The notes beneath the pieces are model-generated. The model was not told where the DNA came from. It did no database searches and saw nothing but the letters and a program-made list of their open reading frames with translations. Both the position numbers and the translations under genes were made by a program. From assembly GCF_014230085.1 (NCBI RefSeq), contig NZ_JACHVB010000060.1, positions 1 to 64,000 of the forward strand: a stretch of 64,000 nt of DNA. The letters run 5' to 3'. Shown here piece by piece: positions 3,456-54,777 of the stretch; positions within the stretch are counted from its first letter, which is position 1, and the number at the start of each line of letters is the position of its first letter. Source of the DNA: Ruficoccus amylovorans (GTDB lineage Bacteria; Verrucomicrobiota; Verrucomicrobiia; Opitutales; Cerasicoccaceae).

Positions 3456-3609
3456 CTAGTGTCGTGTTAGCTAAGTTCTTAACAAATGTTAATGGCCACA
3501 AAAAGGCACAAGAAGCACAGAAAACTTCGTGGATACAGAGTTCGCTCTGCGTCTTTGCGCCTCTGCGGTGAAAATATTTTTATCAGGAACTAAGCTAACG
3601 GGACACTAG
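3456..3609. repeat. MITE-like 154-bp element with ~25-bp terminal inverted repeats
   Basis: The ends 3456-3480 and 3585-3609 are inverted repeats matching at 21 of 25 positions by my count; both outer ends begin CTAGTGTC on their own strand. CTAG at both ends could be the target duplication or part of the repeat. The interior (GGCCACAAAAAGGCAC ... CGTCTTTGCGCCTCTGCGG) contains no gene. Short size, terminal inverted repeats and lack of coding fit a miniature inverted-repeat element; the mobilising transposase is not in the window. Confidence 0.6.
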
Positions 3610-3634
3610 GTCAGCCCCTTTATTTTTTAGCTCA

Positions 3635-3842
3635 TGTCCCCTCTGTCCCTTGATTGTCCCCTGATATTTTTCAGCAGGGGACATCCGATAACCATGATGA
3701 ATAAAGGGATTAATGGCTTTTGTCCCCTTGTCCCCTCACAACACATCATTTAGAAAAAAACAGCAGACATACGAATGACAAGGGAGAGAGGGGAGAAGTA
3801 AACGAAGCTAAAATCATCGGGGGACAGGGGACAGAGGGGACA
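3635..3842. promoter_or_regulatory. Array of GGGGACA / TGTCCCC repeats between helicase and integrase (candidate origin or operator region)
   Basis: TGTCCCC occurs at 3635-3641, 3655-3661, 3721-3727 and 3729-3735, with a one-base variant at 3644-3650; GGGGACA occurs at 3677-3683, 3820-3826, 3827-3833 and 3836-3842. The two orientations cluster on opposite sides, so the region is also a large imperfect inverted repeat. Placement upstream of a helicase gene in a mobile element suggests iterons of a replication origin, or operators for an element-borne regulator. No gene lies in 3423-3899. Confidence 0.5.
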
Positions 3843-3899
3843 ATACGGTTAAAGCAGAGATTCGGCTCTGACGCTCAGGGGGGCATACAAGAGAAAACA

Positions 3900-5291
3900 T
3901 TACTTTCTCCTTTCTCGCTGCCAGTGCCCATTCTTTGGCAGCTCTATCCCGCGCTTGAGGCAGCGTTTGCGGATAGCCTGGTCTGACACCCCGAAATCAT
4001 CGGCCAGGCGCGATAAGGGCTTTTCCCAGACCAGCACCTTAAGGTCATGGTCGGAGGGCCAGTTGTTGAGGCCCTGTCCCATTGGAAGATGGACTTTGAT
4101 GGTTTTCAGCGATTCAGGAGAAATTTCCCAGTAGGCATCGACGGACTTGGGATCATCGATGACGTCGCGGTAATGGCGCTCGATCATCGTTCTGGATGTG
4201 CCATTGTTGAACGCCGTATAGGCGTCATCCTTGTCACGCTCCAGTTGAAAACTAATCGAGGTGTGCCGGATAATGTCCTGCACCCAATGCTCGGCTTGAG
4301 TGGCTACCTTGAGAATCTTCATCTTATATGCTGCGCCCTTGGGCTGACCTGTAAATGGAAACTTTTTCAGCCAGGCGGAAAGTATCTCTGGCTTGGGAAC
4401 CCGCCTGTTCATCTGACGACGTAATTTTCCCCCTGTGACAACGATGTATTCGTCCTTAATGTTTTTGGTCTCCAGGTCGTCGATCTCACTGGGACGTAAT
4501 CCCGCAAAGAGCCCAAGTGCAATGGCCGGGGCCATGGCTCCATCACTGTAGATCATGGACGCGCGGAGCAGGCGCTTAGTTTCATCGAGGGACAGGATTG
4601 AAACCTGGGAGTTGTCGGCTGGCAACTGGTCGAGCCTGGCACACGGGTTTTCAACCGCATAGTGATGACGAACACACCAGTTGAAGAAGGTGCTTAGGCT
4701 GCGCCTGTAGGTTCGCTGCGTGTTGTTATTCTTGTACTTGGACAGCAGTGGCTCAATGACTTTCAGTCCGATCTGATGCACCAGCGTATTCGGATCCATA
4801 CGCTGGAGGAGTTTCAGGCCTGTCGTGTAGTAGGCGTGGGTCCTCTTACGATGTCCCTCTTTGCTTTTCAGAAAGCGTTCAATCGCAGCCCCGATGGCAA
4901 TATCTTCGAGCTCAGGCTTATAGTGTTGGATGAGGAAATGAACAGCCCCGTCCAAAGATAATCCTGTTTTGTCGTGGACTATGGTTTCCAGCTTTCGGTA
5001 GTGGGCTACAATCTCAGCCACTGACGTCCCCGATCCTAAGTTGATAGCACTCTCTGCATCTGCCAACTGCTCACGGGATAAAGCAGTGCGTTGGAGTTGA
5101 TAGTTGATGGCAGCCCCCTCAGCCTCGGTTTCTATGCGTGCTCTGTGTTCGACAGCATCGGCTTTGTAGCGGAAATTCTTCCGTTCTCGCTTCCCATCGG
5201 GCCAGTAACCAGACACTTTCCAAGATGTGGTGCCGCTATCGTTAGTGTACGCTTTGACCTGAAAACGCTCAACTCTCTTGGGCCGGGACAT
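3900..5291 (-). CDS. Tyrosine-recombinase integrase with C-terminal helix-turn-helix tail
   Basis: A 463-residue site-specific integrase. Residues 1-60 resemble an Arm-type DNA-binding region, 130-230 a core-binding SAM-like domain (FFNWCVRHHYAVENPC), and 235-380 the catalytic domain with Arg266 (LFAGLRPSEI), Arg342-His343 (IIRHTS) and the nucleophile Tyr374 (ERHYRD). The HxxR histidine is replaced by Asp339. Residues 411-456 form an extra helix-turn-helix-like tail (WPSDHDLKVLVWEKP...GVSDQAI), which recurs alone at 29923-30060. The gene starts ~100 bases from a tRNA-Val 3' fragment at 5392-5437, as expected for an integrase beside its attachment site. It should catalyse integration and excision of the element to its left. 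Confidence 0.9.
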   Translation of the reverse strand: MSRPKRVERFQVKAYTNDSGTTSWKVSGYWPDGKRERKNFRYKADAVEHRARIETEAEGAAINYQLQRTALSREQLADAESAINLGSGTSVAEIVAHYRKLETIVHDKTGLSLDGAVHFLIQHYKPELEDIAIGAAIERFLKSKEGHRKRTHAYYTTGLKLLQRMDPNTLVHQIGLKVIEPLLSKYKNNNTQRTYRRSLSTFFNWCVRHHYAVENPCARLDQLPADNSQVSILSLDETKRLLRASMIYSDGAMAPAIALGLFAGLRPSEIDDLETKNIKDEYIVVTGGKLRRQMNRRVPKPEILSAWLKKFPFTGQPKGAAYKMKILKVATQAEHWVQDIIRHTSISFQLERDKDDAYTAFNNGTSRTMIERHYRDVIDDPKSVDAYWEISPESLKTIKVHLPMGQGLNNWPSDHDLKVLVWEKPLSRLADDFGVSDQAIRKRCLKRGIELPKNGHWQRERRK

Positions 5292-5832: not shown

Positions 5833-6570
5833 TCAGCTTTCTTGAGTAGAAGTGTTTCTCAGGAGATTAAGGTTGCGAAAAAAGCGCAGGCGGTAGTTTT
5901 CACGACGACCTTCATTTAGATACAATATGCCGATGTAGGGACGATCATCAGCGATACGTGTCGATGTGCTGTAAATCATTTTCCAGGCACCGCTATCCCA
6001 GGTGGCGATCTTGACGGGCAAGTTTGGCGTATCGCTTTTGGGGATTTTGAAGATCATCGACTGGGAAGGCTGCAGCATCTGCTGTGAGCCACGCAGCTCC
6101 GCTGCCATCTGACGAGATGTCAGATTAATGAGCATCACATCCCCGTCCGGGATATGCTGGGGAGAGGCATCGACCGCAATCGATCTCAAACCACCCTGCT
6201 CAGCGACGATAAAAATGATAAACTGCTGGCTAGCCTGCGGAATTTGGCAGTCCATAATGGGCCGGTACTGCGGCTGCCCGTCCAGTGCCGACATCTTGCG
6301 ATAGATCGGCATGGGGTTGGGGCCGTTATAGCCTTGGGGCTCCCCCAGTTGGCAGACTCTGTACTTGAGCGGCACGTAGTCCGAACCATTTTTGTAATAC
6401 AGGTCAACCGGCAGGCCCTTCTCAGGCAACGCCGCCGACGACGACTGATTCCACAGCATCGCCACAAAGCTGGCCTTGGCCGACGTGAGGGGTTCAGCAG
6501 CGGCAGATACCGCCACCGTCAGGGTCGAGGGCAACAGCAAAAGAGAGATAAGCCTGCATAGGTTTCGCAT
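5833..6570 (-). CDS. Secreted partner of Verru_Chthon cassette protein A (unknown function)
   Basis: A 245-residue protein with a signal peptide (LCRLISLLLLPSTLTVAVSA). It starts 27 bases after the stop of the Verru_Chthon A gene and is co-directional, so it is probably the last gene of that operon. The middle holds an IPDGDVMLINLTSR strand pattern followed by a QMLQPSQSMIF segment and a C-terminal beta-rich part. I recognise no named family. The C-terminal half clearly resembles the decayed open frame at 49695-50000 (DAS...MINL...), which there too follows a Verru_Chthon A fragment. That repeated linkage suggests a dedicated periplasmic or extracellular partner, for example an assembly or display factor (inference). 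Confidence 0.7.
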   Translation of the reverse strand: MRNLCRLISLLLLPSTLTVAVSAAAEPLTSAKASFVAMLWNQSSSAALPEKGLPVDLYYKNGSDYVPLKYRVCQLGEPQGYNGPNPMPIYRKMSALDGQPQYRPIMDCQIPQASQQFIIFIVAEQGGLRSIAVDASPQHIPDGDVMLINLTSRQMAAELRGSQQMLQPSQSMIFKIPKSDTPNLPVKIATWDSGAWKMIYSTSTRIADDRPYIGILYLNEGRRENYRLRFFRNLNLLRNTSTQES

Positions 6571-6597: not shown

Positions 6598-9500
6598 TTA
6601 AATTTCGCTGGGGTTCAGCCAACGGAAGCTCACGATCTCGAAGCGACGCCCGAACGCTTCATTTACCGCGCTGAGGGAGCTCGGCTCGGTATCGGGGCTT
6701 TGCGAGTCGTCCACATAGTCGGTGGTGCGCTGCACGACAGCCTCGGCGTAAGCAGTCCCCATGACCTTTCCATAGCGGTCTTCACTCTGTCCGGCCACGC
6801 GAATGACAAAGGTGTCGGAGCGCACCGTCATCGCCGAGCCAAGCGCGGATAGCACATCGACCTGGGAAAGATAGCCGGGGAGGTTCAGTCCGACCGGCGC
6901 GAGAAAGCCCTTGTTCTTGTCAAAGTCGGTCGAGACAAGGTCGCTGGCATCGACCAGCAGGCTGGCATCGGCGTAAAAAGGTTCGTTAACCTGCGAAAGC
7001 TCGAGCGCCGCAGCCAGTGCTCCGCGCAACTGCACCATGGTCCCAAGCGTGTACGCGCTGTCATGATAAACTGAATACGGGTCAGGCGCGCGGGAGGAAA
7101 GCCCGCCGCGATGATAAAGGCTGTCGGTGTCGAGCACGCGATTAACAAAGGCACTCATGGAGGGGAACGGCCCGCGCAGGCGTACCTGATCGACGATGCG
7201 CTCGGCCAGGTCTCGGATCTGATCGTCACTGATCCGGCGGTAGCCTTTGACCGATCCGCTCTCATCCGCCCCGAGGTCGCCGGTGTCGAGCGCCGAGCCC
7301 ACGGCGGTATCCAGCCGGGTGTAGAGACTACCCTCCCCGCTTTCCCCGTCAAAATCGACCCCGCGCAAGCCCGCGAGAAAGGCCGCCCAGGCATCGACCG
7401 AAGTAGAGTTTACATTAAACCCGCCGACGAGTTGGAGGCCCTCCGCCGCCCGGTCATAGTTGCGAAGATCACCGGCCAGAGCATCCGCATCGACTGCCAG
7501 CAGCGGATTAAGCGGATCGGTATCGGCGCCGCTCTGCGGAATCGTGGAGAAGAAGTACCGGTCAAAGAGCACATCGTTAAGCAGGTAGGAGAAATCCCAG
7601 ATGTACTGGTCAAAACGGGTTGTGCCAGAGGGTTGGCTGAAGTAGAGGGTGTCGCCTAAATTCCGGATATACGGGTTGGCGTAGGATGAACCGATCGCAT
7701 AGGCGGGCGCGTGACCGTCTCCGGCCGCGTTCCAGGTCTCGGTGTTTCTGGGCAGCTTGACCGGGGCCGTGATGTTCGCCTGACTCAGTTGGGCGAGAGA
7801 AAAGAGCGGTCCGTGAGGCAGGTCGTAGAGGATAGCCTCGGTGGCTCCGCCCGCACTGGTGGTAGTCCCGACATAGCCGTTGGCACTGCCGGGCAGTTGA
7901 ATCTGGTAGCTCTCGGCCTCGCTGTCGGCGAGAAATCCGCCCCGAAAAACAGCCTGGTTATCATAGCCCATCCCATAGGCCTGATCGAAGTAATCGTAAT
8001 TGGGGGTAAAGGCCCGCGGGTTAAAGAGACCGGCCCAGGCGATGTTGGCGGAGTTGGGTAACTGGCCGCCCGCGAAAGGTAATCCCGCGACAAAAATGTA
8101 TTTGGGATCCGGATACACGGCTCCGGGCAGGTCATAGGTCTGCACACCGGTAACCGGCCCAACATTGGAAGCGCGTATGATCGCCTGGTAATCGTCCTGA
8201 CCGTCTCCTGCGAGAAAGATATCGTAATAGGGGTTGGTGGTGCTGTTGATCTTAAAGCTGATCGTGTATGCGACCGAGTTTGCGCCGGTGCTCGTATCGG
8301 CGGGCTCAGGCGGGATGATTTCGCCCTCGGTCCTGATACTGTAGTCGTTCACATTCGGACAGATAAAAGCAGCCCCCTGCCGGTAGCCCACTTCCAGCGT
8401 GTTGGGCGTGCTGGTATTGCCCCAGGCGGTGGTGGTGGACATCTGCGGGTAGCCGTCCGGCGCGCTAAAGGTTACGCTCTGGCCGGCGGGGATCAGCGTG
8501 GCCGGGAGGGTAAAGTTCGTCGCTCCGAGATAGAGCGTTCCGGTGTCGGACACATTGTCCTTACCCGTTATGGTAGCATCAATACGGATGCCGTTCTGAC
8601 CGTTATTGAGCTTGGAGACCACCGTCATCGACGGGCATGACAGCGCAAAGGCATAGGGATTCCAAACCTGGACGACCGGCATATAGTACAACCGCACGGC
8701 CCCGGCAGAAACATCCGCATAGATACCGAGTTGATAATAGCTGATGACCGGGTGGACCCCCATCTGGTAGGGACTCCCCGAAGGGCGGTCCGGCCGGGCA
8801 GTCATGCTTCCGTTGGGAGAGCGCAGGTTATAAAAATCCCGCAAGACTCCCCACTGCGCGTAATTACGATTGACCGGATTATTTACGTCGAGCGCGGCGG
8901 CACCGCCCAACGTCGGGCTGACGATGAAGGTGGAATCACTGATACCTGAAGGGGCGGAGTTCCCCTCGTCCAGTCCGTAGGTGAGATCTTTTTTCAGACC
9001 ACCGTTTTTTACATCCACCAGCACGCTTCGTGACTGATAGGTGAAATCGTGAAAGTGGTCGCGAGCCGTTGCATCGCTGATGGTCTGGTTGCTATCGGCC
9101 AAAGGCAAAGCGGTAGCCGACAAAACGCGGGCGAGCCTGGCCTGATCAAGCCCCTCGAAGTCCTCGTCGGTGGCCTGGGCCTTAAACGCCGCCTGACTGC
9201 GCCAATCATCGCCGCCGCCGATCTGCTGTTCGCTCAGGTTGATACGTGCCTTGATATTCTCATCGCCCACCCACCAGGCATAGCGCCCGGCATAGTCCCC
9301 CTCATCAAGCGTGACCCACTGCGCGCGCACCGGGTCGTCCGGGGCATCGCTGAGCGCCCCCACAAGCACCACTGAATTTTCATCGTCGAGTTCCGTCTCC
9401 TCGGTGATATAGCCCCCGGGATAGTCTCCGGTGCCGGTCAGATCGTGGACATAAAGCTCGTTACCGCTGACGAGGACGGCGGGGAGCTTGTCGAAATTAT

Positions 9501-9948
9501 GTCCCGGCACTGCTCCGGGATCGGCATGCTCGGAGCCGCTCACATCCCACACCAGGGTGTAATAGGGATTCCCGGGCGTAGCGAAGACCATGTCAGCCGA
9601 GTTCGCCTGTGAGGAAAGCAACGAGCCCACAATATCGGCCCGCGCCGTCACGCGTTGATCAGGACCGGCCGCCTGCTGAAGCTGCCCCAACCCGACCCGC
9701 AAAGCGAACAAGGCGTTGGCGCGGGCTTCCTGCTGGTAGCGGCTCACGGCAGAGGTAGCGGTCTCCACCCGCACCATCGTCGAGAGGGATGTCACCAGCA
9801 ACACACACAATCCCATCAAGAGGATAGCAATGATCAGCGCGAAACCTCCACGCTGCCGCCGCAAGGGAATGCGGCGCGTCCCGAACATCTCCGCCGCCGC
9901 AGCGGAAGAGCGCTGGCGCAAGTGCTGTTGTATGTGTTTTGACATCAT
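6598..9948 (-). CDS. Verru_Chthon cassette protein A-like giant prepilin-type protein
   Basis: A 1116-residue protein beginning (after ~30 basic residues) with RGGFALIIAILLMGLCVLL, a prepilin-like cleavage/membrane segment, followed by a very long exported region with repeated GEW/YAWWVGDENIKARINL-type pieces. This architecture and size match Verru_Chthon cassette protein A, a family named from Verrucomicrobia and Chthoniobacter pseudopilin cassettes (family memory). Near the C-terminus is a QIRDLAERIVDQVRLRGPF motif also typical of pilus-tip (GspK-like) proteins. I chose ATG 9948, 4 bases after the heparinase stop and preceded by GAGG; the frame stays open to 9993. The usual cassette proteins B, C and D are not adjacent; one pseudopilin (12386-13018) and a secreted partner flank it. 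Confidence 0.8.
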   Translation of the reverse strand: MMSKHIQQHLRQRSSAAAAEMFGTRRIPLRRQRGGFALIIAILLMGLCVLLVTSLSTMVRVETATSAVSRYQQEARANALFALRVGLGQLQQAAGPDQRVTARADIVGSLLSSQANSADMVFATPGNPYYTLVWDVSGSEHADPGAVPGHNFDKLPAVLVSGNELYVHDLTGTGDYPGGYITEETELDDENSVVLVGALSDAPDDPVRAQWVTLDEGDYAGRYAWWVGDENIKARINLSEQQIGGGDDWRSQAAFKAQATDEDFEGLDQARLARVLSATALPLADSNQTISDATARDHFHDFTYQSRSVLVDVKNGGLKKDLTYGLDEGNSAPSGISDSTFIVSPTLGGAAALDVNNPVNRNYAQWGVLRDFYNLRSPNGSMTARPDRPSGSPYQMGVHPVISYYQLGIYADVSAGAVRLYYMPVVQVWNPYAFALSCPSMTVVSKLNNGQNGIRIDATITGKDNVSDTGTLYLGATNFTLPATLIPAGQSVTFSAPDGYPQMSTTTAWGNTSTPNTLEVGYRQGAAFICPNVNDYSIRTEGEIIPPEPADTSTGANSVAYTISFKINSTTNPYYDIFLAGDGQDDYQAIIRASNVGPVTGVQTYDLPGAVYPDPKYIFVAGLPFAGGQLPNSANIAWAGLFNPRAFTPNYDYFDQAYGMGYDNQAVFRGGFLADSEAESYQIQLPGSANGYVGTTTSAGGATEAILYDLPHGPLFSLAQLSQANITAPVKLPRNTETWNAAGDGHAPAYAIGSSYANPYIRNLGDTLYFSQPSGTTRFDQYIWDFSYLLNDVLFDRYFFSTIPQSGADTDPLNPLLAVDADALAGDLRNYDRAAEGLQLVGGFNVNSTSVDAWAAFLAGLRGVDFDGESGEGSLYTRLDTAVGSALDTGDLGADESGSVKGYRRISDDQIRDLAERIVDQVRLRGPFPSMSAFVNRVLDTDSLYHRGGLSSRAPDPYSVYHDSAYTLGTMVQLRGALAAALELSQVNEPFYADASLLVDASDLVSTDFDKNKGFLAPVGLNLPGYLSQVDVLSALGSAMTVRSDTFVIRVAGQSEDRYGKVMGTAYAEAVVQRTTDYVDDSQSPDTEPSSLSAVNEAFGRRFEIVSFRWLNPSEI

Positions 9949-9952
9949 GACC

Positions 9953-12325
9953 TCAATGTGGGTTTGCGGTGAACGTGCCGCCGAGGGGGACAAGCGTTGT
10001 CTCCCCCGGAATACTCAAAAGCGGAAAAGCAGTGCGTTGCATGCCCTGCGCGTCGATCGCCATCCCCGGATCAGCGGTGAGCACAAACGTCGTGGTCTGC
10101 GCCTCCGGGGGTTCCGTGCCTGTGAGTCGCACGGCGTGCGCGCTCCCGTCTGAGAAACGCAGGGCGGCCCACCCCTCCGGGGGCTGCGGCATCTTTCCGT
10201 CAACGGTCAACAGCCACTGTCCCTCCGCTCCGGCGGTAAGGCTCTGCACGCCAAAGGCCGATGCAGACTCGCCGCCAGCCAAGAGGACTCCGCCCTTGGT
10301 CAACTGGCTTCCGGCAGCAGCCCAAGTCCAGAGAATGCTTCCCCCTGACTGGGAAACCCCGGCGGCGCGTCCGCTCAGGTGGTAGCCATCGATGGTGACA
10401 TCCGCCCCCGGCAGCCCCAGTATCCAGGTGTCGATACGGTTGGGCAACGTTACCCGTACGAGTATCCCGGCCCCATCGTCCGTGCGTTTCCACTCCACGT
10501 GCTGGATTAGTGAAGACTGACCGGCATCGACCGGCTCATAAAGCGCTCCCCAGAGCGTAACCTGCTCCGGGCTCACTGCGCGCTGGCGCATCAGATGCCA
10601 GCCCGGGAAATCGTTCTTTTTCGAAGCGTCCTGGTTGGTCGGGCGCAGGCGCGGCATCTGGCTGAGCCAACTGGTTGAGCCCGGCTGCGGTGCCAGGTAC
10701 AAATCGAGCGCGACTTGACTGTCTTCGCCGGTCCAGGTGATGTTAAAACTCTTATCGCTCTGCACACGCTTCGGATTGCCCAGCATCTCCGTCCATGAGC
10801 TGCCCTTTCCCTGATCCTTTAGAACTTCCGCCAGGTTATCCTTACCGCTCGGGGTCAGCGGGACGCTGACTTCCTGATCGACCGGCTCGTCTTCGCTCTG
10901 CCGCAGAAATGAGCGGTGGAGCGTTCCGCCCTGAAGCCAGAAGGCGTCCACCACGTACCCAGTCCACTGCCCGGTCGCGACCTGTATGAGGGCGCGTTCG
11001 CAGAGTGTTGCCTGCTCGGCTTCGGGACCGGGTGAGGCGGCGGCCACGTAAGTGATCAACCCAGAGGAAGAGGTCCCATCGTCAAAGCCGAGAATAGCGC
11101 TCCTGGCCCACTGCCCTCCCCAAACGCCGTGAGGCCCCTTACCATAGCTGGCATTATCCGCGACCACGATCGAGGTGTTGTGGGCGTAGGGAGACATGTG
11201 AAAATAGCGGTTGTTGGCAGGCCGGAAGGGATAACCCGCGTCGGGAAGTAATTCCTCTCCGTGAGCCCATAGTTGCAGGCTCAAACGACTATCGTGATAA
11301 TGTCCGCCGCCATAGCGCCCTCCCCCGGTGAGCGTGGGAACGGACAGATGCGTCTCCATATCCGGTCCCGGCACCGCGAAGTGCCCAAAGTCAGGAAAAA
11401 CGATCACCTTGGGAGCGCGTGGGTAGGCATCCACCGGAACAGTCCAGTGGGTGTCATTCACGGTGATCGGATGGCCACTGGGCATGGAAAAGTCGGCCAA
11501 CACTTCGTTAATGCGCTGAAGTCTTTCGCTGAGACGGTCCAACTCGTTATCCGGATCTTCGATCAGACCGGCGTCACCCCCCGCGCGGAGCATCGGCAGG
11601 AGCGCTTTCAAGTTACCGGTGACTTGTGTGCCATAGGAGACGGACCCCTCCTGCCACATGAGATCCGCGTGCCAGAATTCCGGGCTGTAGGCGAGCCTGT
11701 CAGCTACCTCCAGGCACAGTTGCATGAGGCTGGCATCATTGAGCACGAGAGCCAGCGAGGCCGCGTGCCGAAGTCCGTAGGGCGTGTAGTTCGTCACCTG
11801 CCCGGGCCGCTGCAAGATCTCTGCAAAGGAATCGGCATAATCCCAGAGCCAGTCCTCCACGTCATCGCGGATGGCTAAAATCTCGCCATCGGCGTTTTTC
11901 ACGGGCCAGACCGGGGCATCCTTGACCAGCGCGTAGGCAATCACCGCCGGATAGGGAATCCACTGGCCCTCCGTATGAATCGGAGCCGGGGGAACAGGAG
12001 TCTGCCGGGAGGCGAGGCCCCCAAGAATGGCCGCAGCCTTTTCGGCATCCGCAACCTCTCCGCTCAGCCGATAAAGATGGGCCATCCGCCAGGCTGTCCA
12101 CTCAATCGGTGGCCGCCCGTAGCTGACAAACTCTGCGCTGGAAGCAGCCTGCTCGTAAAGCTGTCCATCGCTGGAAGCCCGTGCCGCAGCCGTCGCCGCT
12201 TCCAGCTCCGGTACCTGGGCCTCCCCGGGAGATGCCGTACTCCACGCGGCTCCGTCCCAGGCCGGGTTCGCATAGGTGTACAGCGGCAGCAGGCACAGGA
12301 GACTGACTCTTGTGATCAAATTCAT
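9953..12325 (-). CDS. Heparinase II/III-family polysaccharide lyase, exported
   Basis: A 790-residue protein with a short signal peptide (LITRVSLLCLLPLYTYA). The N-terminal ~300 residues form an alpha/alpha toroid-like region, and GGGHYHDSRLSLQLWAHGEE followed by LLPDAGYP (about residues 335-365) is the heparinase II/III C-terminal domain signature with candidate catalytic His/Asp. Such enzymes cleave uronate-containing polysaccharides (heparinoids, alginate, ulvan-like) by beta-elimination; the substrate cannot be told here. The gene lies between a pseudopilin (upstream, 60 bases) and Verru_Chthon A (downstream, 4 bases), so all are probably co-transcribed. Confidence 0.8.
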   Translation of the reverse strand: MNLITRVSLLCLLPLYTYANPAWDGAAWSTASPGEAQVPELEAATAAARASSDGQLYEQAASSAEFVSYGRPPIEWTAWRMAHLYRLSGEVADAEKAAAILGGLASRQTPVPPAPIHTEGQWIPYPAVIAYALVKDAPVWPVKNADGEILAIRDDVEDWLWDYADSFAEILQRPGQVTNYTPYGLRHAASLALVLNDASLMQLCLEVADRLAYSPEFWHADLMWQEGSVSYGTQVTGNLKALLPMLRAGGDAGLIEDPDNELDRLSERLQRINEVLADFSMPSGHPITVNDTHWTVPVDAYPRAPKVIVFPDFGHFAVPGPDMETHLSVPTLTGGGRYGGGHYHDSRLSLQLWAHGEELLPDAGYPFRPANNRYFHMSPYAHNTSIVVADNASYGKGPHGVWGGQWARSAILGFDDGTSSSGLITYVAAASPGPEAEQATLCERALIQVATGQWTGYVVDAFWLQGGTLHRSFLRQSEDEPVDQEVSVPLTPSGKDNLAEVLKDQGKGSSWTEMLGNPKRVQSDKSFNITWTGEDSQVALDLYLAPQPGSTSWLSQMPRLRPTNQDASKKNDFPGWHLMRQRAVSPEQVTLWGALYEPVDAGQSSLIQHVEWKRTDDGAGILVRVTLPNRIDTWILGLPGADVTIDGYHLSGRAAGVSQSGGSILWTWAAAGSQLTKGGVLLAGGESASAFGVQSLTAGAEGQWLLTVDGKMPQPPEGWAALRFSDGSAHAVRLTGTEPPEAQTTTFVLTADPGMAIDAQGMQRTAFPLLSIPGETTLVPLGGTFTANPH

Positions 12326-12385: not shown

Positions 12386-13018
12386 TCATTCATTGAGGTA
12401 AAAGACCTCCGCGTAAGTGGGGTTTTCGATGTAGCGGACGCTGCCGTCCCAGTAGCATACGTTAACGCCGGCGCCGTGTCGCCACCCGTCGGCTCCCTTC
12501 ACCTTGGAGATAAACCTGGCCTCGCTTTTGTAATCATTGGTTGCGGGTTGGTCCGCGTCGATAAATGCCGGCGAACGCGCCGGGTCGTCGATTTCATTGA
12601 TCCGGCTCCACTCCTGATTCTCCTTTAACAGCAGATAGGAGAGCCGGGCCCACTCGGAGTTACCACTTGCGAGTTCTTTGATGGCTTCTTCGTCCTCCGG
12701 GCAGGTAAAGACTTTGGAGGTGCCGGAAGCCCTCTGTTTCACGTCCAGGTAGTGGTAAAGCTGCTGAAACCAGTAACCGCTTTGGATGTACGGGGTGGAA
12801 ATCAGCTTCCCGCCATGCTCATTGGTGTAAAGTTTACTGGCCGTGCCCAGTTGGCGCATATTGGATGCGCAGATACTCTGGTTTGCCTTATGCCGGATCA
12901 TCCCTGAGACCGGGATAAGGATGGCTGCCAGTATACCGATGATTACGACAACCGCCAGCAGTTCAATCAAGGTGAATCCTTTGGATAAGGCCTTGGGCTT
13001 ACTACAAAAATTAAACAT
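12386..13018 (-). CDS. Type II pseudopilin-like protein with H-X9-DG tail
   Basis: Starting at ATG 13018 (an upstream frame extends to 13081), a 210-residue protein has a 14-residue basic leader, then GFTLIELLAVVVIIGILAAI, the prepilin peptidase cleavage and methylation motif with Glu at +5. The C-terminus contains H-GAGVNVCYW-DG, i.e. exactly H-X9-DG, a tail typical of the large Planctomycetes/Verrucomicrobia pseudopilin-like family. Should be cleaved by a type IV prepilin peptidase and sit in the inner membrane or a pseudopilus. First gene upstream of the heparinase/Verru_Chthon A operon. Confidence 0.85.
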   Translation of the reverse strand: MFNFCSKPKALSKGFTLIELLAVVVIIGILAAILIPVSGMIRHKANQSICASNMRQLGTASKLYTNEHGGKLISTPYIQSGYWFQQLYHYLDVKQRASGTSKVFTCPEDEEAIKELASGNSEWARLSYLLLKENQEWSRINEIDDPARSPAFIDADQPATNDYKSEARFISKVKGADGWRHGAGVNVCYWDGSVRYIENPTYAEVFYLNE

Positions 13019-13157
13019 ACTTAATTTATTTATATATTCCGATTTTTGCGAGACATGCCTAACTTTACTAATATCGGTCAAAAAATTGACTTATGTACTC
13101 TTAATTCCCGTCTGTCCCGAGTTTAGATCTATAAAGCAACTTGGATGCCAACAGGCA

Positions 13158-14537
13158 TCAGGAGGCGGCTAAGGCCGCACACGAATTGAGAATATTATGA
13201 TTTAAAAGCCGTTCCCTCGCCATCTTCAATGGCTCCAGGTGACAAGCCTGGTAGTAATGCGGAAGCGGGGAGACGACTTTGTCCTGTAGAAAGTTTTCCA
13301 GATCTTTGCCGGCCAGTTCACAGGCACGGATATCTCCATCAAAAAGGTCTAAAATCGTCTCCTCGATACCGCTGCTGGCACGATCCGGCTCCAGTTCGAG
13401 GTTAACGATCTGCTCCTCAAGCTGCCGGACCCAGCCCCAGCCGCGATCGGCATGATAAGTCAGACGCTGGAGAATCTCACGGATCTGACGGAACGCTTCC
13501 CCCTCGCCGATGCCGTCGAGAAGGCTCAGGCACGCATCCAGCCCCTCGGCCGGCGCGCAACCATTGTATAAAATCAGGGCCGTGTTCACGAGCGAATCAA
13601 GGGCACCGTCCACGGGAGATACCTGAATCCGGCCGCTGGCATAACGGCTCCATGCGGTCGCAAATACTCCTTGGAGCTGAAAACGCGGGGTCAGTTCCGC
13701 CCATCCCTGAGTCGCCTGGGCACGATCACGCGTCAGAGGCAAATTCGCAGCGGGTCCGTCCGCCCCTTTGTAAGCGGTCGCAGCCCACAAGCGGCAACCC
13801 AGCGCATGCAGCTTCTCGACGTGCGGCAAACGATAGTGATAGGTGGCATTGTCGCGGGGGTCCCCGGTGTAGCCCCACACCACCAGGTCAACCCGGTCAG
13901 CGATAGCAGAAATCTGGTCGGGTGCCCACTGGACAATTTCGTCGTGCCACAGCAGCGGACGCACATCACGGGATTCCAGCATTTTCAGGCTGGGCTCAAG
14001 TTGGCGCAGATAGAGCGCCGCGATGCCCTGTTCCTGGACAAAGGCCTCGCTGGCCGGATGCTTGCCCAGGGTGTAAACTTCGTCACCCCCAAGGTGGAAG
14101 CGTTTAACCTGAGGCAGCAGCTCGATCACATCCTGCACCATGGCCGCAACCAGTTCGGGCGACTGCGGATTGAGCGGGTGAAAGACATCCGTGCGGTTCG
14201 GTACTTCACGCAGCGCTTCATACTCGGGCAGGCGCAGGACATTCTCGGAGTGCCCGAGAGCCTGAACCAACGGGATGATCTCTAACTCCAACTCCTCGCA
14301 CCGCCGGGCAAAACGGGCAACCTGTTCCGTTGTGTAGGCGTGCGGGGCACGCAGGCGCTCATTGCAGCGCCAGGGGAAGCAGTCCTCCCACTCGACCAGC
14401 ACGGCCTGGAACCGAAGTTCGTGAAAGACTTCCAGCAGCTCCAGGAGTCTGGAAAAGGTGGGGACCAGCCCCTTCAGGTCAAGATGAACCCCACGAAACG
14501 GAACAGCGGGTGCGTCGGAATGGAATAGATCAGTCAT
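13158..14537 (-). CDS. GH20-like beta-N-acetylhexosaminidase, cytoplasmic
   Basis: A 459-residue TIM-barrel protein without a signal peptide. FHLGGDEVY places the family 20 catalytic Asp-Glu pair at residues 152-153; WHDEIVQW (about 206) and VVWGYTGD (about 228) fit later barrel strands. In GH20 enzymes the Asp orients the substrate N-acetyl group and the Glu is the acid/base. The final ~120 residues are a helical extension. Absence of a leader implies action on imported oligosaccharides. It lies 8 bases downstream of the AraC regulator gene and upstream of the pseudopilin-heparinase operon. Confidence 0.8.
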   Translation of the reverse strand: MTDLFHSDAPAVPFRGVHLDLKGLVPTFSRLLELLEVFHELRFQAVLVEWEDCFPWRCNERLRAPHAYTTEQVARFARRCEELELEIIPLVQALGHSENVLRLPEYEALREVPNRTDVFHPLNPQSPELVAAMVQDVIELLPQVKRFHLGGDEVYTLGKHPASEAFVQEQGIAALYLRQLEPSLKMLESRDVRPLLWHDEIVQWAPDQISAIADRVDLVVWGYTGDPRDNATYHYRLPHVEKLHALGCRLWAATAYKGADGPAANLPLTRDRAQATQGWAELTPRFQLQGVFATAWSRYASGRIQVSPVDGALDSLVNTALILYNGCAPAEGLDACLSLLDGIGEGEAFRQIREILQRLTYHADRGWGWVRQLEEQIVNLELEPDRASSGIEETILDLFDGDIRACELAGKDLENFLQDKVVSPLPHYYQACHLEPLKMARERLLNHNILNSCAALAAS

Positions 14538-14545: not shown

Positions 14546-15493
14546 TCAGGAGGTCAGTGTGATGCGCAGCGGGGGACGGCCCTGCTCCAGGTGGCTGCGA
14601 TAGGCCGAGGGGGACATGCCGATTGCCCGGCTGAAGGACTGGCTGAAGGAGTAGATGGACTCGAAGCCGCTGAGCTTGGCGATGTCGGAGACCGAGATGT
14701 CGCTGCGGTGCATGAGCTGCACCCCCCGCGTCAGGCGGGAGTAGCGCAGGTAGCTGCCGAGGCTCACCCCATAGCTCTCACGAAAAGTCTTGCGCAGGTT
14801 GCTCTCAGAGACGCCCAGGTACTCAGCGATATCGTCAATGCGCAACGCCTGCGACATATTCTCATCCACAAAGTGCGTGATCCGCCTCAGGGTCTGGCAA
14901 GTGTCGAGGTCTTCGGCGGAGACATCGTCGGCTTCGGCAACGACATCGCGTTTTCCCATTGCCTGGGCGAGGCGCCCCATGCGCAGAGCGGTCTCAAAGA
15001 TATTGGATTCCGACTGGCCACTCAGGTAAACCCGCGTCGCGTCGGCAACCATCTCCATGTCGGCATCCTCCAGTCGTACCGGCTGATTAAGGGCACTCCC
15101 GAGGTTCAGATCAACCAGCAGCTCAAACGTGAAAAACAGCCACGAGAACTCTTTATGCGGGAAGCCGAAGTAGCGGTGGAAATTTCCCGGCTCCATGAGA
15201 ATGGCCATCCCCGGATGGAAACGGTAGACTCTATCACCGCTGCATACACAGGCCTTGCCCGTGTAATTAATAACAAGCTCGTAGCGTCGGTGCAGGGTGT
15301 GGCTGACACCGGCAGGAATCATCTCCTTGCTCTTCGTGCGGTAGAAGAACAGGTAGTTATTCGGCATGACACCGTTACCCCAGACGTGCCCGTGGTAGTG
15401 ATCGGCCAGATCACCGACTTGGGGCAACCAGGAGGGCTGGGGAATAGACTTAGCGTCTGTCATCGGTGGTAGATCTTTTACAGGCGATTCCAT
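14546..15493 (-). CDS. AraC-family transcriptional regulator
   Basis: A 315-residue protein: an N-terminal cupin-like sensing domain (about 40-170, with RYELVINYTGKACV and PGMAILMEPGNFHRYFG) and a C-terminal double helix-turn-helix (about 210-305; SMSPSAYRSH at the end). ATG 15463 is an equally possible start. It is the promoter-proximal gene of the leftward module 1 operon and divergent from the secreted protein at 15561, so it probably controls both directions from the 67-base gap 15494-15560. Confidence 0.9.
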   Translation of the reverse strand: MESPVKDLPPMTDAKSIPQPSWLPQVGDLADHYHGHVWGNGVMPNNYLFFYRTKSKEMIPAGVSHTLHRRYELVINYTGKACVCSGDRVYRFHPGMAILMEPGNFHRYFGFPHKEFSWLFFTFELLVDLNLGSALNQPVRLEDADMEMVADATRVYLSGQSESNIFETALRMGRLAQAMGKRDVVAEADDVSAEDLDTCQTLRRITHFVDENMSQALRIDDIAEYLGVSESNLRKTFRESYGVSLGSYLRYSRLTRGVQLMHRSDISVSDIAKLSGFESIYSFSQSFSRAIGMSPSAYRSHLEQGRPPLRITLTS

Positions 15494-48310: not shown

Positions 48311-49603
48311 ATGAAAAGATTCACCCTACCCTTCACCTGTCTCGCCCTGTGCGCAGCCAATGTGTATGCCGAGGATCCGGAAGCCCCAACTCCAATCCCC
48401 GAACCCGCCTCAGCCGACCAAAGTTTCTGGACACAGGAGTACCTGACCGGAGACTGGGGCGGTGTCCGTACCGAACTGGCCGACTATGGGGTCAGCTTCG
48501 AGTTTACCAATATCCTGGATTATTACGATGACATCTCCGGCGCGCTCTCCGGCGGTGGAACGGTATTCAACCGCGTCCGCGGCACGATGAACCTCGATCT
48601 GGACAAACTGATCGGGTTCACAAATGCCAAGTTCTCCGTCGGCGGCGTCTCGCAGTTTGGCAGCAATTACAACCGCTCCCACTTCGGCGTCTTGACCAAC
48701 CCCAGCTCAATCGAGGGGGTCAATACCACCCGCTTCGCCCAGATATGGCTGGAGCAAACCCTCTTCGACAACATGCTGACCTACCGCATCGGTAAGGTCG
48801 ATGGCGTCGGCGCCTTCGGGGCCCAGCCCTACGGCGGAACGTTTATGAACGATGAGTTGGCCTACATCCCCAACCTGCTCTTCGCCGCCGGGCTGCCCTT
48901 TGACCCGGCTCAGCAACTCGGAGCCATCATCACTCTGCGCCCCTTCGAAGACAGCCAGCTTGAGGGCACTTACGTCAAGGCCGGTGTCTTCAACACCAAC
49001 AACAACAACGCGATCAACTTCGATAACATCGGGACGGATTTCAACACGGATGGCCCGGTCGCGGTTGCCGGCGAGATCGGCTATAACTTCGGAGCTACCC
49101 CCGCGGATATGCCGGGCTACGTCAAAGCCGGTATCCACCACAACTTCGGCTCGTTCGTCGAAGTTAATTCCCCCAACACCAGCCAGGGTAACACGCTCTT
49201 TTACGTCAATGTGGGCAAGACCATCTACAAGTTCGATGAAGACGGTGAGCGCCACCTGGACGCCTCACTTTCTTTCAGCTATGCTCCCAAGCAGAACGTG
49301 AACGTCTATCACTACGAAATGACGGCGCTGCTGCGCGCCATCGGCCCGTTTGCCTCGCGCCCGTTCGACGAAGCCGGTCTCGGCTTTATCGCCGCCTGGC
49401 TGACCGACGACTACTCGAACTCGACGCCTACCACCGGCACCGACCCCAGCGGTAATGAGTTCACGGTCGAACTGACCTACAAGGCACGCCTCACTCCGTG
49501 GTTCACGCTGCAGCCCGACTTCCAGGTCGTCGTGAATCCCAACGGCAACGGCAGCCGATCGCCGGTCTACATCGCCGGTATCCGCAACGTCATCAGCTTC
49601 TAA
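48311..49603 (+). CDS. OprB-type carbohydrate-selective porin
   Basis: A 430-residue outer-membrane protein: signal peptide (RFTLPFTCLALCAANVYA), a Pro-rich spacer, then FWTQEYLTGDWGGVRTEL, the hallmark OprB start, followed by alternating beta strands and the end YIAGIRNVISF, a terminal Phe as expected for a beta barrel. OprB porins let mono- and oligosaccharides diffuse through the outer membrane; with no SusCD pair in the window it is the likely entry point. Single gene, own promoter presumably in the 530-base gap upstream. Confidence 0.9.
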   Translation: MKRFTLPFTCLALCAANVYAEDPEAPTPIPEPASADQSFWTQEYLTGDWGGVRTELADYGVSFEFTNILDYYDDISGALSGGGTVFNRVRGTMNLDLDKLIGFTNAKFSVGGVSQFGSNYNRSHFGVLTNPSSIEGVNTTRFAQIWLEQTLFDNMLTYRIGKVDGVGAFGAQPYGGTFMNDELAYIPNLLFAAGLPFDPAQQLGAIITLRPFEDSQLEGTYVKAGVFNTNNNNAINFDNIGTDFNTDGPVAVAGEIGYNFGATPADMPGYVKAGIHHNFGSFVEVNSPNTSQGNTLFYVNVGKTIYKFDEDGERHLDASLSFSYAPKQNVNVYHYEMTALLRAIGPFASRPFDEAGLGFIAAWLTDDYSNSTPTTGTDPSGNEFTVELTYKARLTPWFTLQPDFQVVVNPNGNGSRSPVYIAGIRNVISF

Positions 49604-49694: not shown

Positions 49695-50160
49695 TCAGAA
49701 AGAAACCACGTCGAGACCGACGCCGCCTTCCTCAGACTCATCCTGGACGAAAACCAGGTAGCGGGAGGACTTGGGGCGGGGCAGGTTCACATCTGAGACA
49801 ATCGTGAAGTCCTGTGCGTCACCAGTGGCCACACTGAGCGAATCGTAACGCTTTTCTCCCTGCGGTTCGATGTTTTTGGCACTACGGCTTTTGAGCAGGA
49901 AATTCTCCTCATTAAGCTTCACCGCCACGTCCTGATTGCTCAGGTTGATCATGGTGTAGCTGCCGGATGGAGCCTTGGAGGCATCGACGAACTCAGGCAT
50001 ACGCTGGACAATCGCCTCCGCATATTGTCATCACCGGCATAGCCGTGGTTCAACTGCGCGTGCTGCAACTCGGCCAGCGAATGCGGAGGCAGCTCCGGGT
50101 CGGGAATCTGGATGAGCACGAAGCGGTTGACGCCGTCCCTCCTGTTACCGGATGGATAAA
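49695..50160 (-). pseudogene. Decayed Verru_Chthon A + partner pair (internal deletions)
   Basis: On the minus strand, from ~50160: NRFVLIQIPDPELPPHSLAE, then LQHAQLNHGYAGD matching the SLAQL segment of Verru_Chthon A; after a frameshift, YAEAIVQRMPEFVDASKAP, matching YAEAVVQRTTDYVDDS near the C-terminus of the 6598-9948 protein; then directly SGSYTMINLSNQDVAVKLN...YLVFVQD, matching the C-terminal half of the partner protein at 5833-6570. Gene order (A, then partner) is the same as in the intact operon. The 101-codon frame 49695-50000 is the fused tail. Not functional. Confidence 0.65.
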
Positions 50161-52205
50161 CGAGCGGCAGAAACCTCGCGACCAAACTCCGCCCGCACAT
50201 TGGCCGGAACCTTGGCCTCACAATGAACACGTCCGGCCTCTTTCCACGCCTTTACCTTAATCGGACCACGCACCGTCGGCACCGTTCCCACGATCCGGTT
50301 CAGAGCGCCCAACTGGGGGTCGATCAGCACTTGACCGTAACCGACTTCGAGCGGACGTACCCCGAGCACATACCGGGCAATCATGGTGGCCGGCGCCGTT
50401 GCCCAGGCATGGTTCCAATCCAGATTTGGCTTCAAGCTCTCGTCCCACGCCTCCCAGGTCAGGGTGGCTCCGCGCTCCAGCATATGCTGCCAACTGCGCA
50501 GCCCCCTCCCCGCCATCAGTGTTATCGCATAGTCCGCTTCACGTGCTTCAAACAACCCCTCAAGCATGTAATACACAGCATAGACGGAGCAGGTAATGCC
50601 ACGGCTTTTGATGAAATCGACAACTCGCCCGCTTCGCTCCGCAGGAACAAGCCCGCAGGCCAAAGGAAATATATTCGCGTGCAGAGAGCTGTGCGCGCTT
50701 CCCTCCCCGTCCATGTAGGCGCCAGCGATTTCATCGAACAAATGCGCATTGAAGGCCGCATGCACACGCCCGGCTTTTGCCGCATACATCGCCTGATCCT
50801 CATCCAATCCCAAAACACCGGCGATCCGCGCCATGATCAGCAGCGTACGGTAGTGCAAGGCGTTGACCACGGTGTTGACCTCGACAAAGTCGTAGTCATC
50901 CCGCTCCACCGGCGGCCAATCCACAATGTCCCCCGCGTCATCACCCCCGGGAACGCCGCGACTGAGGTGGCCGGTTTCGAGCAGGCCATCCTCGCGCGCA
51001 TGGATCAGCAACAGCTTTTCACGCTTGAGCGTTTCATAGTGTCGCCGCAGGAGCCGGTCATCGCCCGTGGCCTCGTAATCGGTCCACGCGATCAGGATAG
51101 AGTGCTGCTTCCACTCCGTCGGCCAGGTCGGGCGCTTGAGCAAATACTCATGTGTGCGCCTCGCGAGCGAATATTCCCGGTCCAGCGCATAGTGGGCGCA
51201 CTGGTTGATGTAGGCGTCCGCTTCGTACGGAATGCGCTCACGGTCACCATCCACGTAGTAGCCACAATAAGAAGTCGCCTGCACCGTGTATTTGCAAAGC
51301 TCCCACACCCGGTCGAGCTCCCGGGACGACGAACTAAAATCGGCGGCCTTATCGTCGAACACGTACTGCACGCGCTTTTGCGTAGCGGCGACGAGTGTCA
51401 CCGCGTGGGCGCCCCCCTCGATCTGCACGTACCGAAATGGCAAGACAACACCCAACGCGTCATCGAGCTTGATCGCCTTGGGGCCGGTGTTCTGCGCTTC
51501 GGGCGAAGTCTCCACACGGACGATCCGGCGGCCGGGCGTTACCGACAGGTTGACTTCCTTATAGCGAACATTGCCGGGCGGGTTTCGGTCCACAGCACCC
51601 CCTCGGCAAGCTTCACCGACCCTGACCAGCAAGCTCGCCTCCGCCACGCATTCCAGCTCCAGTTCCAGCCAGCCAAATGCCTGCCGCCCGAAGTCGATAA
51701 AGCAACCTTGCCCCTCAATACGTCTGACAAGCACGGGCGAAACCGCTTCGATCTGAAGCGGATAGTGGCTGACAGCTTCGGCAACGGGAGTCTGTGCCGA
51801 CGGGCTGATGCGAAAACACTGTTCCTCTGACCAAAGGCTCGGCAAGCCATCGCGAGCGGCCCAAGTGCGCACCCGCCACCGATAGCTCCCGCCGGGCTTG
51901 AGCGCTCTCCCCTCGTACGAAACGCCCACCGATTGCGCCGAGGAGACCGGACCGGACACCCAGGCAACGCGACTGCCAGAGGCGTCCATGACCAGCAATT
52001 CATACGCTTCCTGAGAGGGCCCCGGCAGCCCTGCGTTGACGATCCACCCGAACGTCGGTCGAGTCGTAGCCAGCTCAGCCAGCCCCGGAAACGCCAGCAG
52101 ATCACACATCAGCCCGGACGGCTGGCAGTGGACAGGCAACCGCTCGTGCCCGTTTTTCCGCTTCACGTCAACTTCAGGCGCAACATTCGTCATCTCAGTC
52201 TGCAT
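50145..52205 (-). CDS. GH78-like alpha-L-rhamnosidase
   Basis: A 686-residue protein without signal peptide: N-terminal fibronectin/beta-sandwich segment (about 30-125), a Bac_rhamnosid-type beta domain (GCFIDFGRQAFGWLELELE) and a six-hairpin catalytic barrel with DGDRERIPYEADAYI, DWPPVERDDYDF and the C-terminal signature ETLKP-like DWNHAWATAPATMIARYVLG. These fit GH78 rhamnosidases; the conserved Glu/Asp near ERIPYEAD replaces the typical DERxGWTGD motif. Cytoplasmic, so acts on imported rhamnosides. Its last 16 bases overlap the adjacent decayed remnant. Confidence 0.8.
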   Translation of the reverse strand: MQTEMTNVAPEVDVKRKNGHERLPVHCQPSGLMCDLLAFPGLAELATTRPTFGWIVNAGLPGPSQEAYELLVMDASGSRVAWVSGPVSSAQSVGVSYEGRALKPGGSYRWRVRTWAARDGLPSLWSEEQCFRISPSAQTPVAEAVSHYPLQIEAVSPVLVRRIEGQGCFIDFGRQAFGWLELELECVAEASLLVRVGEACRGGAVDRNPPGNVRYKEVNLSVTPGRRIVRVETSPEAQNTGPKAIKLDDALGVVLPFRYVQIEGGAHAVTLVAATQKRVQYVFDDKAADFSSSSRELDRVWELCKYTVQATSYCGYYVDGDRERIPYEADAYINQCAHYALDREYSLARRTHEYLLKRPTWPTEWKQHSILIAWTDYEATGDDRLLRRHYETLKREKLLLIHAREDGLLETGHLSRGVPGGDDAGDIVDWPPVERDDYDFVEVNTVVNALHYRTLLIMARIAGVLGLDEDQAMYAAKAGRVHAAFNAHLFDEIAGAYMDGEGSAHSSLHANIFPLACGLVPAERSGRVVDFIKSRGITCSVYAVYYMLEGLFEAREADYAITLMAGRGLRSWQHMLERGATLTWEAWDESLKPNLDWNHAWATAPATMIARYVLGVRPLEVGYGQVLIDPQLGALNRIVGTVPTVRGPIKVKAWKEAGRVHCEAKVPANVRAEFGREVSAARLSIR

Positions 52206-52257: not shown

Positions 52258-54777
52258 TCAAGTTCCAGCCGTATCAAACACGGTCAAGCCCTTCAGATTC
52301 ACCTTTCTGGTTTGTATCAATAAACTGAATACATAGCCGGAAACAAAACACGTCAGCAGCGCCACCAGAATGAAAAAGGACCAATGCAGATCCGTATAGG
52401 TCCTGACCCAGAGCGTACACACGATCGACAGACACACGCCGATGATTGCCCCGACCCAGTTGCCACGTCGGGTAAAAAGCCCCAGGATGTATATCCCTCC
52501 AATGCCCCCGCCCAGCAGCGCGATGATCTCGTTCCAGATCTTGAACATGGAAGTGATCTCCATCCCGGCCATATAGAGCGCCGCCCCTGTGCCAAACAGC
52601 CCGACAAAAACCGACAGCACTTTCAGGCTTATCAAGCGGGCGCGGTCGCTGATACCGGGCCGGAATTTGCGAAACCAGTCCTCGACCACGATGGTCGCCA
52701 CCGAGTTCATACTGCTGGACAGCGTGGACATGGAGGCGGCGAAAAGCGCCGCAATAATCAGCCCCGCCAGCCCTACCGGAAGCCGCTGGATGATGAACAG
52801 CGGGACGATCTGGTCGTTATCCATCAGCGGGTCCAGCTCCTGCGGCCTGCTCCGGAAATAGGCGAAGGCAACGAGCCCGACTCCATGCACCAGCAGCGAA
52901 ATGAGAATCCCGAAAAAGGCATAGGTTTTGGCCAACTTGCGCACATCCGCCAGACGGACCGAAAACACACGCTGCACCACCGGCTGGTCTCCCAGAAACG
53001 AAGCCTGCTGAAAGAGCCAGCTCAGAATCCCTATCCAGAGAATCGGCAGCGTGTAGTCCCACTTCAAATAGAACAGGTCAAATTTGTCATACTGCGCGGA
53101 TACAGTGACGAATTCAGAAAACCCTCCCGGCAGACTGCAAATCCCCAACACCACCATAACAGCCGCTCCGCCCACCATCAGGCAGCCCTGAATAACATCG
53201 GTCCAGATAACTGCCTCGAAACCGCCCAGTGTCGAGTAAAGTGTGGTGACCAACCCCAGCAGGGCGACGCACAGATAGACGTTCAATCCCGTGACGGCAG
53301 AGATAGCCAGCGAAGGCAGCAGCAGCACCACACTCATTCGCCCCAGAAGCTGAAACAGGATGCACTGCGCACTGGCCACGTAGCGCAGTGCCGGATGGAA
53401 CCGCAGCTCCAAGAATTCGTAGGTCGAGGTCAGCCTCAACTTCCTCAGCAGGGGAAAAAACAAATAGGCCTGCAGAAAATAGCCGGGGATCAGCAGCAAA
53501 ACCAGGAAAAACCAGACCAGGTTTCCCACAAAGGCCTGCGCCGGAATCGCCATAAAACTGATGCTACTGGAGGCCGTGGCAAACATGCTGATACCCGCCG
53601 CCACGCCGGAGACGTTGCGACTGCCGAGGGCAAATTCCTCGCTGCTGTTTTGCTTGCGGGAAAAGCTCAGGCCCACCCATACGACCCCCATCAGGTAAGC
53701 GACCAAAACACCGTAATCCCACCCGGACAGGCTTTTAACCACCCGCAGTCCCGAGACGGAATATATCTCTGCCGTATCCAAGTCCGCCGCCAGGTAATCA
53801 CCGTTCCGGTCCGCCACACCGACACGCCGCAAGGGCTGCGCCACACCGGTAGCCGTAATCCAGGTGTCTGTCACCGAATGATAAATAAATGCCTCTTGTT
53901 TGCCTGCGGCCCTCGTCAGTAATTCATCCAGCGAGGAGAAAGCTTCAGCGGAGTTGAAACCGCCGAGCACAACCAGGTGACTTTGCCCAAGCCCCGCGAC
54001 CCCGCTCCCAGCCAGAGGAACTAACATGGGGGACAGTTCACGCCAGCCACGATGGTCCGTCGAATCGACCGGAAACTCGCGCCACCCGGCTCCTTCACCG
54101 CAAATGCGCAAGCCCTCCGCCCCCTCGCCGATACCACCGAAAACAATCAACTCGCCAAATCGACTGCCGACCTCAGGAAGTAAACGCCCGCCCATCGGCA
54201 TAGGCGGAAGGCGTTCCCAGCCCGCCGCACGTTGCGCAAGGTTTAGCCGAAACACCGCGTCCGAAGGCGCTAGTCCCTCGAGCGTGGCACTGCCGCCCAC
54301 CAGGTACAGATAGCCGTCGTGGACGACCGCGCTCGCATAGGCCCGCGCCTCCGGTAATGAGGGCAACGCCGTGATCTCCACGCGCCCGGTCTGCCAGGTC
54401 AGACGGCGGCATTCACGGCTAGTTTGCCCATTCTCCAAGCCGCCCAGAATGAAAAGCGAATCACCCGAAGCCGCGCTCGCGGCATACGCAGGTGCCTGTG
54501 CATCGAGCCGTTCCCATACTCCGTCAACACGCCACACATATATCTCCGACTGTCGCGCCCGCTCGTCCGCAAGCTCACCGCCAAACCACAGCGTGCCCCC
54601 GTCGCCGCAAAAGAACGCTCCGGCTCCCGCCGGGCCGGGCAGCCTGAGATCGGTGCCCGTGACCTGCAGGCTCTGCTGGTCTCCGGCCTCTGCGGAGGCG
54701 CAGCACAACGAGGCCACGCACAGCCCTAGCAAGAACCAGCGAACGACGCCATTGAGAGAGTTCCCTGAAAGTGGCAT
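52258..54777 (-). CDS. SSS symporter fused to an N-terminal kelch domain
   Basis: An 839-residue fusion. After a signal peptide (VVRWFLLGLCVASLCCASA), residues ~35-345 form a kelch-type propeller (LFILGGLENGQTS, LYLVGGSATLEG, LIVFGGIGEGAEGL, LVVLGGFNSAEA), as in NanM-type epimerases/mutarotases. From ~360 on is a complete SSS carrier (FALGSRNVSGVAAGISM, STLSSSMNSVATIVVED). Such fusions occur in sialic acid-type or sugar uptake loci, giving coupled anomer conversion and Na+-driven uptake (family knowledge). Next to the rhamnosidase and the heparinase-like lyase on the same strand. Confidence 0.85.
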   Translation of the reverse strand: MPLSGNSLNGVVRWFLLGLCVASLCCASAEAGDQQSLQVTGTDLRLPGPAGAGAFFCGDGGTLWFGGELADERARQSEIYVWRVDGVWERLDAQAPAYAASAASGDSLFILGGLENGQTSRECRRLTWQTGRVEITALPSLPEARAYASAVVHDGYLYLVGGSATLEGLAPSDAVFRLNLAQRAAGWERLPPMPMGGRLLPEVGSRFGELIVFGGIGEGAEGLRICGEGAGWREFPVDSTDHRGWRELSPMLVPLAGSGVAGLGQSHLVVLGGFNSAEAFSSLDELLTRAAGKQEAFIYHSVTDTWITATGVAQPLRRVGVADRNGDYLAADLDTAEIYSVSGLRVVKSLSGWDYGVLVAYLMGVVWVGLSFSRKQNSSEEFALGSRNVSGVAAGISMFATASSSISFMAIPAQAFVGNLVWFFLVLLLIPGYFLQAYLFFPLLRKLRLTSTYEFLELRFHPALRYVASAQCILFQLLGRMSVVLLLPSLAISAVTGLNVYLCVALLGLVTTLYSTLGGFEAVIWTDVIQGCLMVGGAAVMVVLGICSLPGGFSEFVTVSAQYDKFDLFYLKWDYTLPILWIGILSWLFQQASFLGDQPVVQRVFSVRLADVRKLAKTYAFFGILISLLVHGVGLVAFAYFRSRPQELDPLMDNDQIVPLFIIQRLPVGLAGLIIAALFAASMSTLSSSMNSVATIVVEDWFRKFRPGISDRARLISLKVLSVFVGLFGTGAALYMAGMEITSMFKIWNEIIALLGGGIGGIYILGLFTRRGNWVGAIIGVCLSIVCTLWVRTYTDLHWSFFILVALLTCFVSGYVFSLLIQTRKVNLKGLTVFDTAGT

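Follow-up and report, generated by a model that had tools for sequence, protein, structure and literature searches.

Verrucomicrobiota play a major part in the breakdown of complex marine polysaccharides. The large protein that we call A resembles protein A of the Verru_Chthon cassette (TIGR02600), which is likewise a giant prepilin-like protein, with a homologous N-terminus and a C-terminal motif that aligns weakly. In several genomes with a single copy, A also lies beside GspH/I/J-like pseudopilins, as in the cassette with its B, C and D proteins; most dispersed pairs do not. Unlike members of TIGR02600, A proteins score 13–20 bits against a 332-bit cut-off; true TIGR02600 proteins were found in 2 of 115 genomes of the phylum, with no partner gene P beside them, and in our source genome A and P are dispersed away from the pilin core. 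GspK of the T2SS (NF037980) shares with A a prepilin-like N-terminus without Glu5 and a place after H-I-J-like genes. In contrast to GspK, A is about three times longer, occurs in about 20 copies per genome and is paired with P.

A search of the literature on Verru_Chthon and on pseudopilins with polysaccharides yielded one relevant paper. The genome of the related Verruconatronum alginivorum, also of the Opitutales, has 67 homologues of a PulG-like pseudopilin that is encoded inside an alginate-induced polysaccharide-lyase cluster (PMC13274419). Like A-P, this is a multiplied pseudopilin in a polysaccharide locus; the protein, however, is PulG-like and not A, and the accessible part of the text does not describe A-P (PMC13274419). 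The paper lends support to a connection of pseudopilins with polysaccharide loci, without concerning A-P itself.

The window is a stretch of 64,000 nucleotides from Ruficoccus amylovorans, whose genome (the source genome) comprises 4.5 Mb in 64 contigs. Its features are listed in Table 1. The intact A-P pair belongs to a close-packed run that begins with an AraC regulator, continues through GH20, PulG-like and heparinase-like genes to A, and ends with P. Just downstream of P, 2070–5291 encodes a DUF5906/VapE-like protein together with a protein that looks like an integrase but has no Pfam match; the two may belong to an integrated element.

Table 1. Features of the window, in window coordinates
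Feature	Position	Strand	Evidence
Intact P: secreted partner, 245 aa	5833..6570	-	Signal peptide; predicted tandem beta-sandwich; no Pfam/NCBIfam family
Intact A: putative giant GspK/Verru_Chthon-A-like minor pseudopilin, 1116 aa	about 6598..9948	-	G|FALII prepilin-like N-terminus, no Glu5
Heparinase II/III-like protein, directly upstream of A	9953..12325	-	PF07940 E=4.5e-7
PulG-like pseudopilin, H-X9-DG C-terminal motif	12386..13081	-	PF07963; TIGR01710 33.8 bits; TIGR04294 19.2 bits
GH20-type glycoside hydrolase	13158..14537	-	PF00728 E=5e-7
AraC-type regulator, first gene of the run	14546..15493	-	PF00165 E=1.7e-18
OprB-type carbohydrate porin, other side of the relic	48311..49603	+	PF04966 E=2e-44
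Relic piece 3 (P second half)	49695..49985	-	P profile positions 129-217 at about 49985-49725; 34.8 bits, E=1e-9
Relic piece 2 (A C-terminal motif)	about 49950..50024	-	A profile positions 1003-1027; 15.6 bits, E=4e-4
Relic piece 1	about 50045..50140	-	A profile positions 668-697; 13.4 bits, E=0.0018
Alpha-L-rhamnosidase-like gene adjoining the relic	50145..52205	-	PF17389 E=2.8e-46
Kelch-SSF sodium:solute symporter fusion near the relic	52258..54777	-	PF00474 E=8e-43

Family assignment of A and P

The original prediction had named the intact A a Verru_Chthon A protein, an assignment that is too close. Window A scores 13.5 bits against the full TIGR02600 model, far below the 332.3-bit cut-off, and the best score in the source genome is 19.9 bits, over the N-terminal 59 positions only. 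Among its 21 A proteins the weak N-terminal matches to NCBIfam models (GspK in 14, TIGR02600 in 13) are nowhere near the cut-offs. Compared by hhalign with a profile of true TIGR02600 proteins, A aligns over the first 72 columns (E=9.7e-10, probability 96), and its C-terminal motif aligns weakly (P value 0.02). Judged by sequence, A is distantly related to Verru_Chthon A but falls outside that family.

The N-terminus G|FALII is prepilin-like, and Glu at mature position 5 is absent from 20/20 and from 51/52 sequences having the motif. Against the GspK model window A scores 18.2 bits, confined to the helix and below the 130-bit cut-off; Pfam T2SSK gave no match in A, and comparison with GspK beyond the N-terminal helix gave no significant one. 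Evidence for homology to GspK is thus confined to the helix, and further along there is a hint only: the AlphaFold model of A (pLDDT 72, pTM 0.81), showing a long helix at the N-terminus and a large body of mixed structure, matched GspK structure 3ci0_K in Foldseek with a probability of 0.14. That Foldseek search returned no match at E<=0.001, and its spike-protein rows (probability <=0.03) were rejected as noise. Profile searches of the PDB with A, with the C-terminus of A and with P found nothing significant.

By a script pattern match, P carries a signal peptide with no lipobox and, in most copies of the source genome, an AxA-type cleavage site; N149 is the one invariant residue among 19 paralogues. 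Pfam gave no match above noise for any of 72 P members, nor did any NCBIfam model match window P. Its predicted structure is confident and all-beta (pLDDT 86.9), with best fold matches to the paired Ig-like extracellular domains of PepT1/PepT2 (E=1e-5, TM about 0.5). On this model we take P to be a predicted tandem beta-sandwich and read nothing more from the match; the modelled likeness to PepT domains says little on function.

A and P form a conserved two-gene module

Linkage of A and P had been proposed from two instances, a number far exceeded here. The source genome has 21 full-length A genes, 19 of them with P directly downstream, as well as two relic pairs. Where the gap was measured, the two genes of a pair overlap by up to 62 bp or stand up to 44 bp apart. 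P is present in 15 of the 19 genomes searched (the source genome and relatives), at 2 to 36 copies per genome in the same family, mostly 14 to 36, and at 1 to 2 in the other families of the order. A lies directly upstream in all 30 P loci fetched from the source and related genomes.

The reciprocal search used the C-terminus of A alone as query and drew loci from Opitutales, Akkermansiaceae, Verrucomicrobiaceae and Kiritimatiellota. P was directly downstream in 65 of the best 80 loci, a biased estimate of the fraction since these are the top-scoring loci and several come from the same genome; it was divergently upstream in three and absent from 12, most of these in Akkermansiaceae/Verrucomicrobiaceae. 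These 12, like two of the 21 A genes of the source genome (L052 and L056), have no P nearby, so A can occur where no P adjoins it. In an even sample of the phylum (145 genomes), A was found in 35 genomes and P in 23. A accompanies P in 22 of these 23, and in the other genome P lies at a contig end. Copy number in this sample is bimodal, 1–3 or 6 and more. P is not found mostly away from A, the clear exception being one Akkermansia-like genus (L193, L194 and L195; G069, G023 and G154) with a single P locus apart from A. In L193 and L195 the gene next to P resembles a sugar kinase by eye.

Adjacency extends over several families and reaches Kiritimatiellota (L164). After P, the families that recur most often beside A are sulfatases and SSF symporters, which are far less constant. 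Distance matrices of A and of P for the 19 pairs of the source genome are correlated (Mantel r=0.45, p=0.0002), consistent with the two genes having duplicated together; P diverges faster than A. A-P is a conserved two-gene module, and the assignment allows hundreds of hypothetical proteins to be named jointly.

Some loci depart from the usual layout. At L045 (G000:C43, 5592–14501) two A-P pairs are convergent, facing each other within 9 kb. L199 (G063) and L198 (G120) show variant orders, namely two tandem P genes after A, and a P gene that precedes A in the same orientation.

Pilin core, carbohydrate loci and possible roles

In five members of the order with a single-copy P hit (G157, G109, G036, G078 and G016), A-P follows prepilin genes. 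The fullest of these operons, which end with A-P, have PulG-like, I-like, J-like, A and P genes consecutively; in G078 only a PulG-like gene could be identified, some 1.1 kb upstream of A. The arrangement was not seen in the single-copy genomes at L189, L191 and L202. Dispersed A-P pairs have a prepilin gene just upstream in 3 of 66 loci. The pilin core of the source genome (L186, G000:C21, 8688–12269) consists of five tandem prepilin genes in the order PulG-PulG-H-I-J, neither A nor P was found in this cluster, and its J-like gene has no second copy in the genome, which also has T2SS genes with their own GspK (115 bits). A-P in the source genome is separate from the pilin core and present in about 20 copies, most simply read as a pair that left a prepilin operon and multiplied. 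Elsewhere in this genome (L188, G000:C34, 8506–10706) three PulG-like genes lie in tandem, in surroundings that also include mobile-element-like genes.

The A-P copies lie preferentially in carbohydrate loci. A sulfatase or SSF symporter is found within 10 kb of 17 of the 23 A sites of the source genome (relics included; two are neighbours on contig C43, so the sites are not fully independent), where 6.5 were expected and 0 of 5000 random draws reached 17. Generic N_methyl genes are not enriched near these sites. A-P, one-to-one, about 20 per genome and mostly in sugar loci, thereby offers a testable link between pseudopili and polysaccharide use.

The best reading of A-P, in which our belief and our doubt are about balanced, is that the pairs act as exchangeable tip modules of minor-pseudopilin type, each for a particular polysaccharide locus, the tip role being what we infer. 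A would be a very large minor pseudopilin akin to GspK and Verru_Chthon A, and P a secreted protein of two beta-sandwich domains devoted to it. Each A would cap a pseudopilus built from the shared core (it lacks Glu5, as GspK does), and P would bind the exposed periplasmic part of A. By swapping tips, the cell could use one machine to export or capture the enzyme or polysaccharide of whichever locus has its pair induced. More tentatively, and we hold this wider version to be doubtful, Opitutales and some Kiritimatiellota may run one pseudopilus machine with about 10–30 interchangeable A-P tips, each encoded in and regulated with a polysaccharide locus and conferring substrate-specific export or capture; such a system would parallel the SusC/SusD pairs of Bacteroidota in a modular form based on a pilus.

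Somewhat unlikely, in our judgement, is that P is a periplasmic chaperone or stabiliser for the folding or delivery of A and stays outside the finished filament. A single P per A, directly downstream and with a signal peptide, would suit such a helper, as would the very large, multi-domain body of A; the faster divergence of P is also what might be seen in a chaperone that tracks its client. The predicted tandem beta-sandwich, however, has no chaperone match, and 12 of 80 A genes lack a P. We rate as unlikely a role for A-P as a surface or periplasmic polysaccharide-binding pair for each sugar locus, similar to SusC/SusD, with the pilin helix as a membrane anchor only. The family's copy number (mostly 14–36 per genome), the dispersal of the pairs into carbohydrate loci and the beta-rich P agree with it, but no carbohydrate-binding family was matched, and the single-copy arrangement inside prepilin operons suggests filament assembly. 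The sequence data do not separate the tip, chaperone and glycan-binding readings.

The relic at 49695–50140

Between 50140 and 49695 on the minus strand lie three colinear pieces, from mid-A, the A C-terminus and the second half of P. The HMMs of A and P were built from intact paralogues of the same genome, leaving this fragment out of the training set. With the window reversed, top scores were 1.9 bits (A profile) and 4.9 bits (P profile); a broader P profile gave the fragment 48.7, against 6.4 for the reversed window. Direct tblastn of intact A against the window gave a marginal match at the relic (E=0.05), and that of intact P gave none there. The original prediction had placed fragments of both proteins, in the same order and strand, at 49.7–50.16 kb, and the colinear profile matches of 13.4, 15.6 and 34.8 bits bear it out. 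The proposed alignment of 49695–50000 with 5833–6570 is not significant pairwise and is recovered with the P profile at E=1e-9. Minus-strand translation of 49.6–50.3 kb reproduces the peptides quoted earlier, and a further A piece, DGVNRFVLIQIPDPELPPHSLAELQHAQL, lies just upstream of the stretch then quoted. The peptide of piece 2, YAEAIVQRMPEFVDASKAP (A profile positions 1003–1027), matches the A protein of L057 at 79% over 19 residues.

Absent from the relic A are the first ~667 codons, about 300 codons between the pieces and the last ~40 codons, and the two remaining pieces are in different frames. The relic P has lost its first ~128 codons; its open frame extends to a stop at 49695 and has no signal peptide. 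Given the change of frame between the A pieces, the loss of P's first half and of the greater part of A, and the missing signal peptide, 49695–50140 is, as read from its sequence, a deletion relic of one A-P pair. That deletions run A into the MINL region of P had also been predicted: the deletions are present, but the exact junction is not placeable to the residue, since VDASKAP is similar to both proteins. It is very improbable that the 101-residue open frame at 49695–50000 is instead a working A-P fusion; the frame does stay open through the junction, but it has neither signal peptide nor prepilin helix, half of P is gone, the A pieces are in two frames and no intact fusion of such kind was seen elsewhere.

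A search of relatives for an intact orthologous pair beside the rhamnosidase turned up three distant rhamnosidases, none of which has A or P near, and this sets no limit on the relic's age. On its own the relic is weak evidence for linkage of A and P. The proposal that P is a likely dedicated component of the system holds on the wider record: 19/21, 30/30, 65 of the 80 top-scoring A loci plus three divergent, and 22/23 genomes strongly support P as a dedicated companion of A rather than a chance neighbour. That P merely hitchhikes beside A with no functional tie is hardly credible given this adjacency across several families and Kiritimatiellota and the far lower constancy of the next commonest neighbours, sulfatase and SSF, despite the low sequence conservation of P (one invariant residue among 19) and its separation from A in one genus.

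If the pairs do act as exchangeable tips, those of disused loci would decay, as at 49695–50140 and on contig C40. The relic pair on C40 (L063, G000:C40, 2417–4657) joins A profile positions 3–106 in frame to 712–880, an in-frame deletion of about 600 codons, and the first half of its P is fused into a frame that looks by eye like a sialate O-acetylesterase. Another decaying pair is seen at L206 (G126:C4, 3229–7864), in a genome of 1.7 Mb, where A is in six pieces and P is still downstream.
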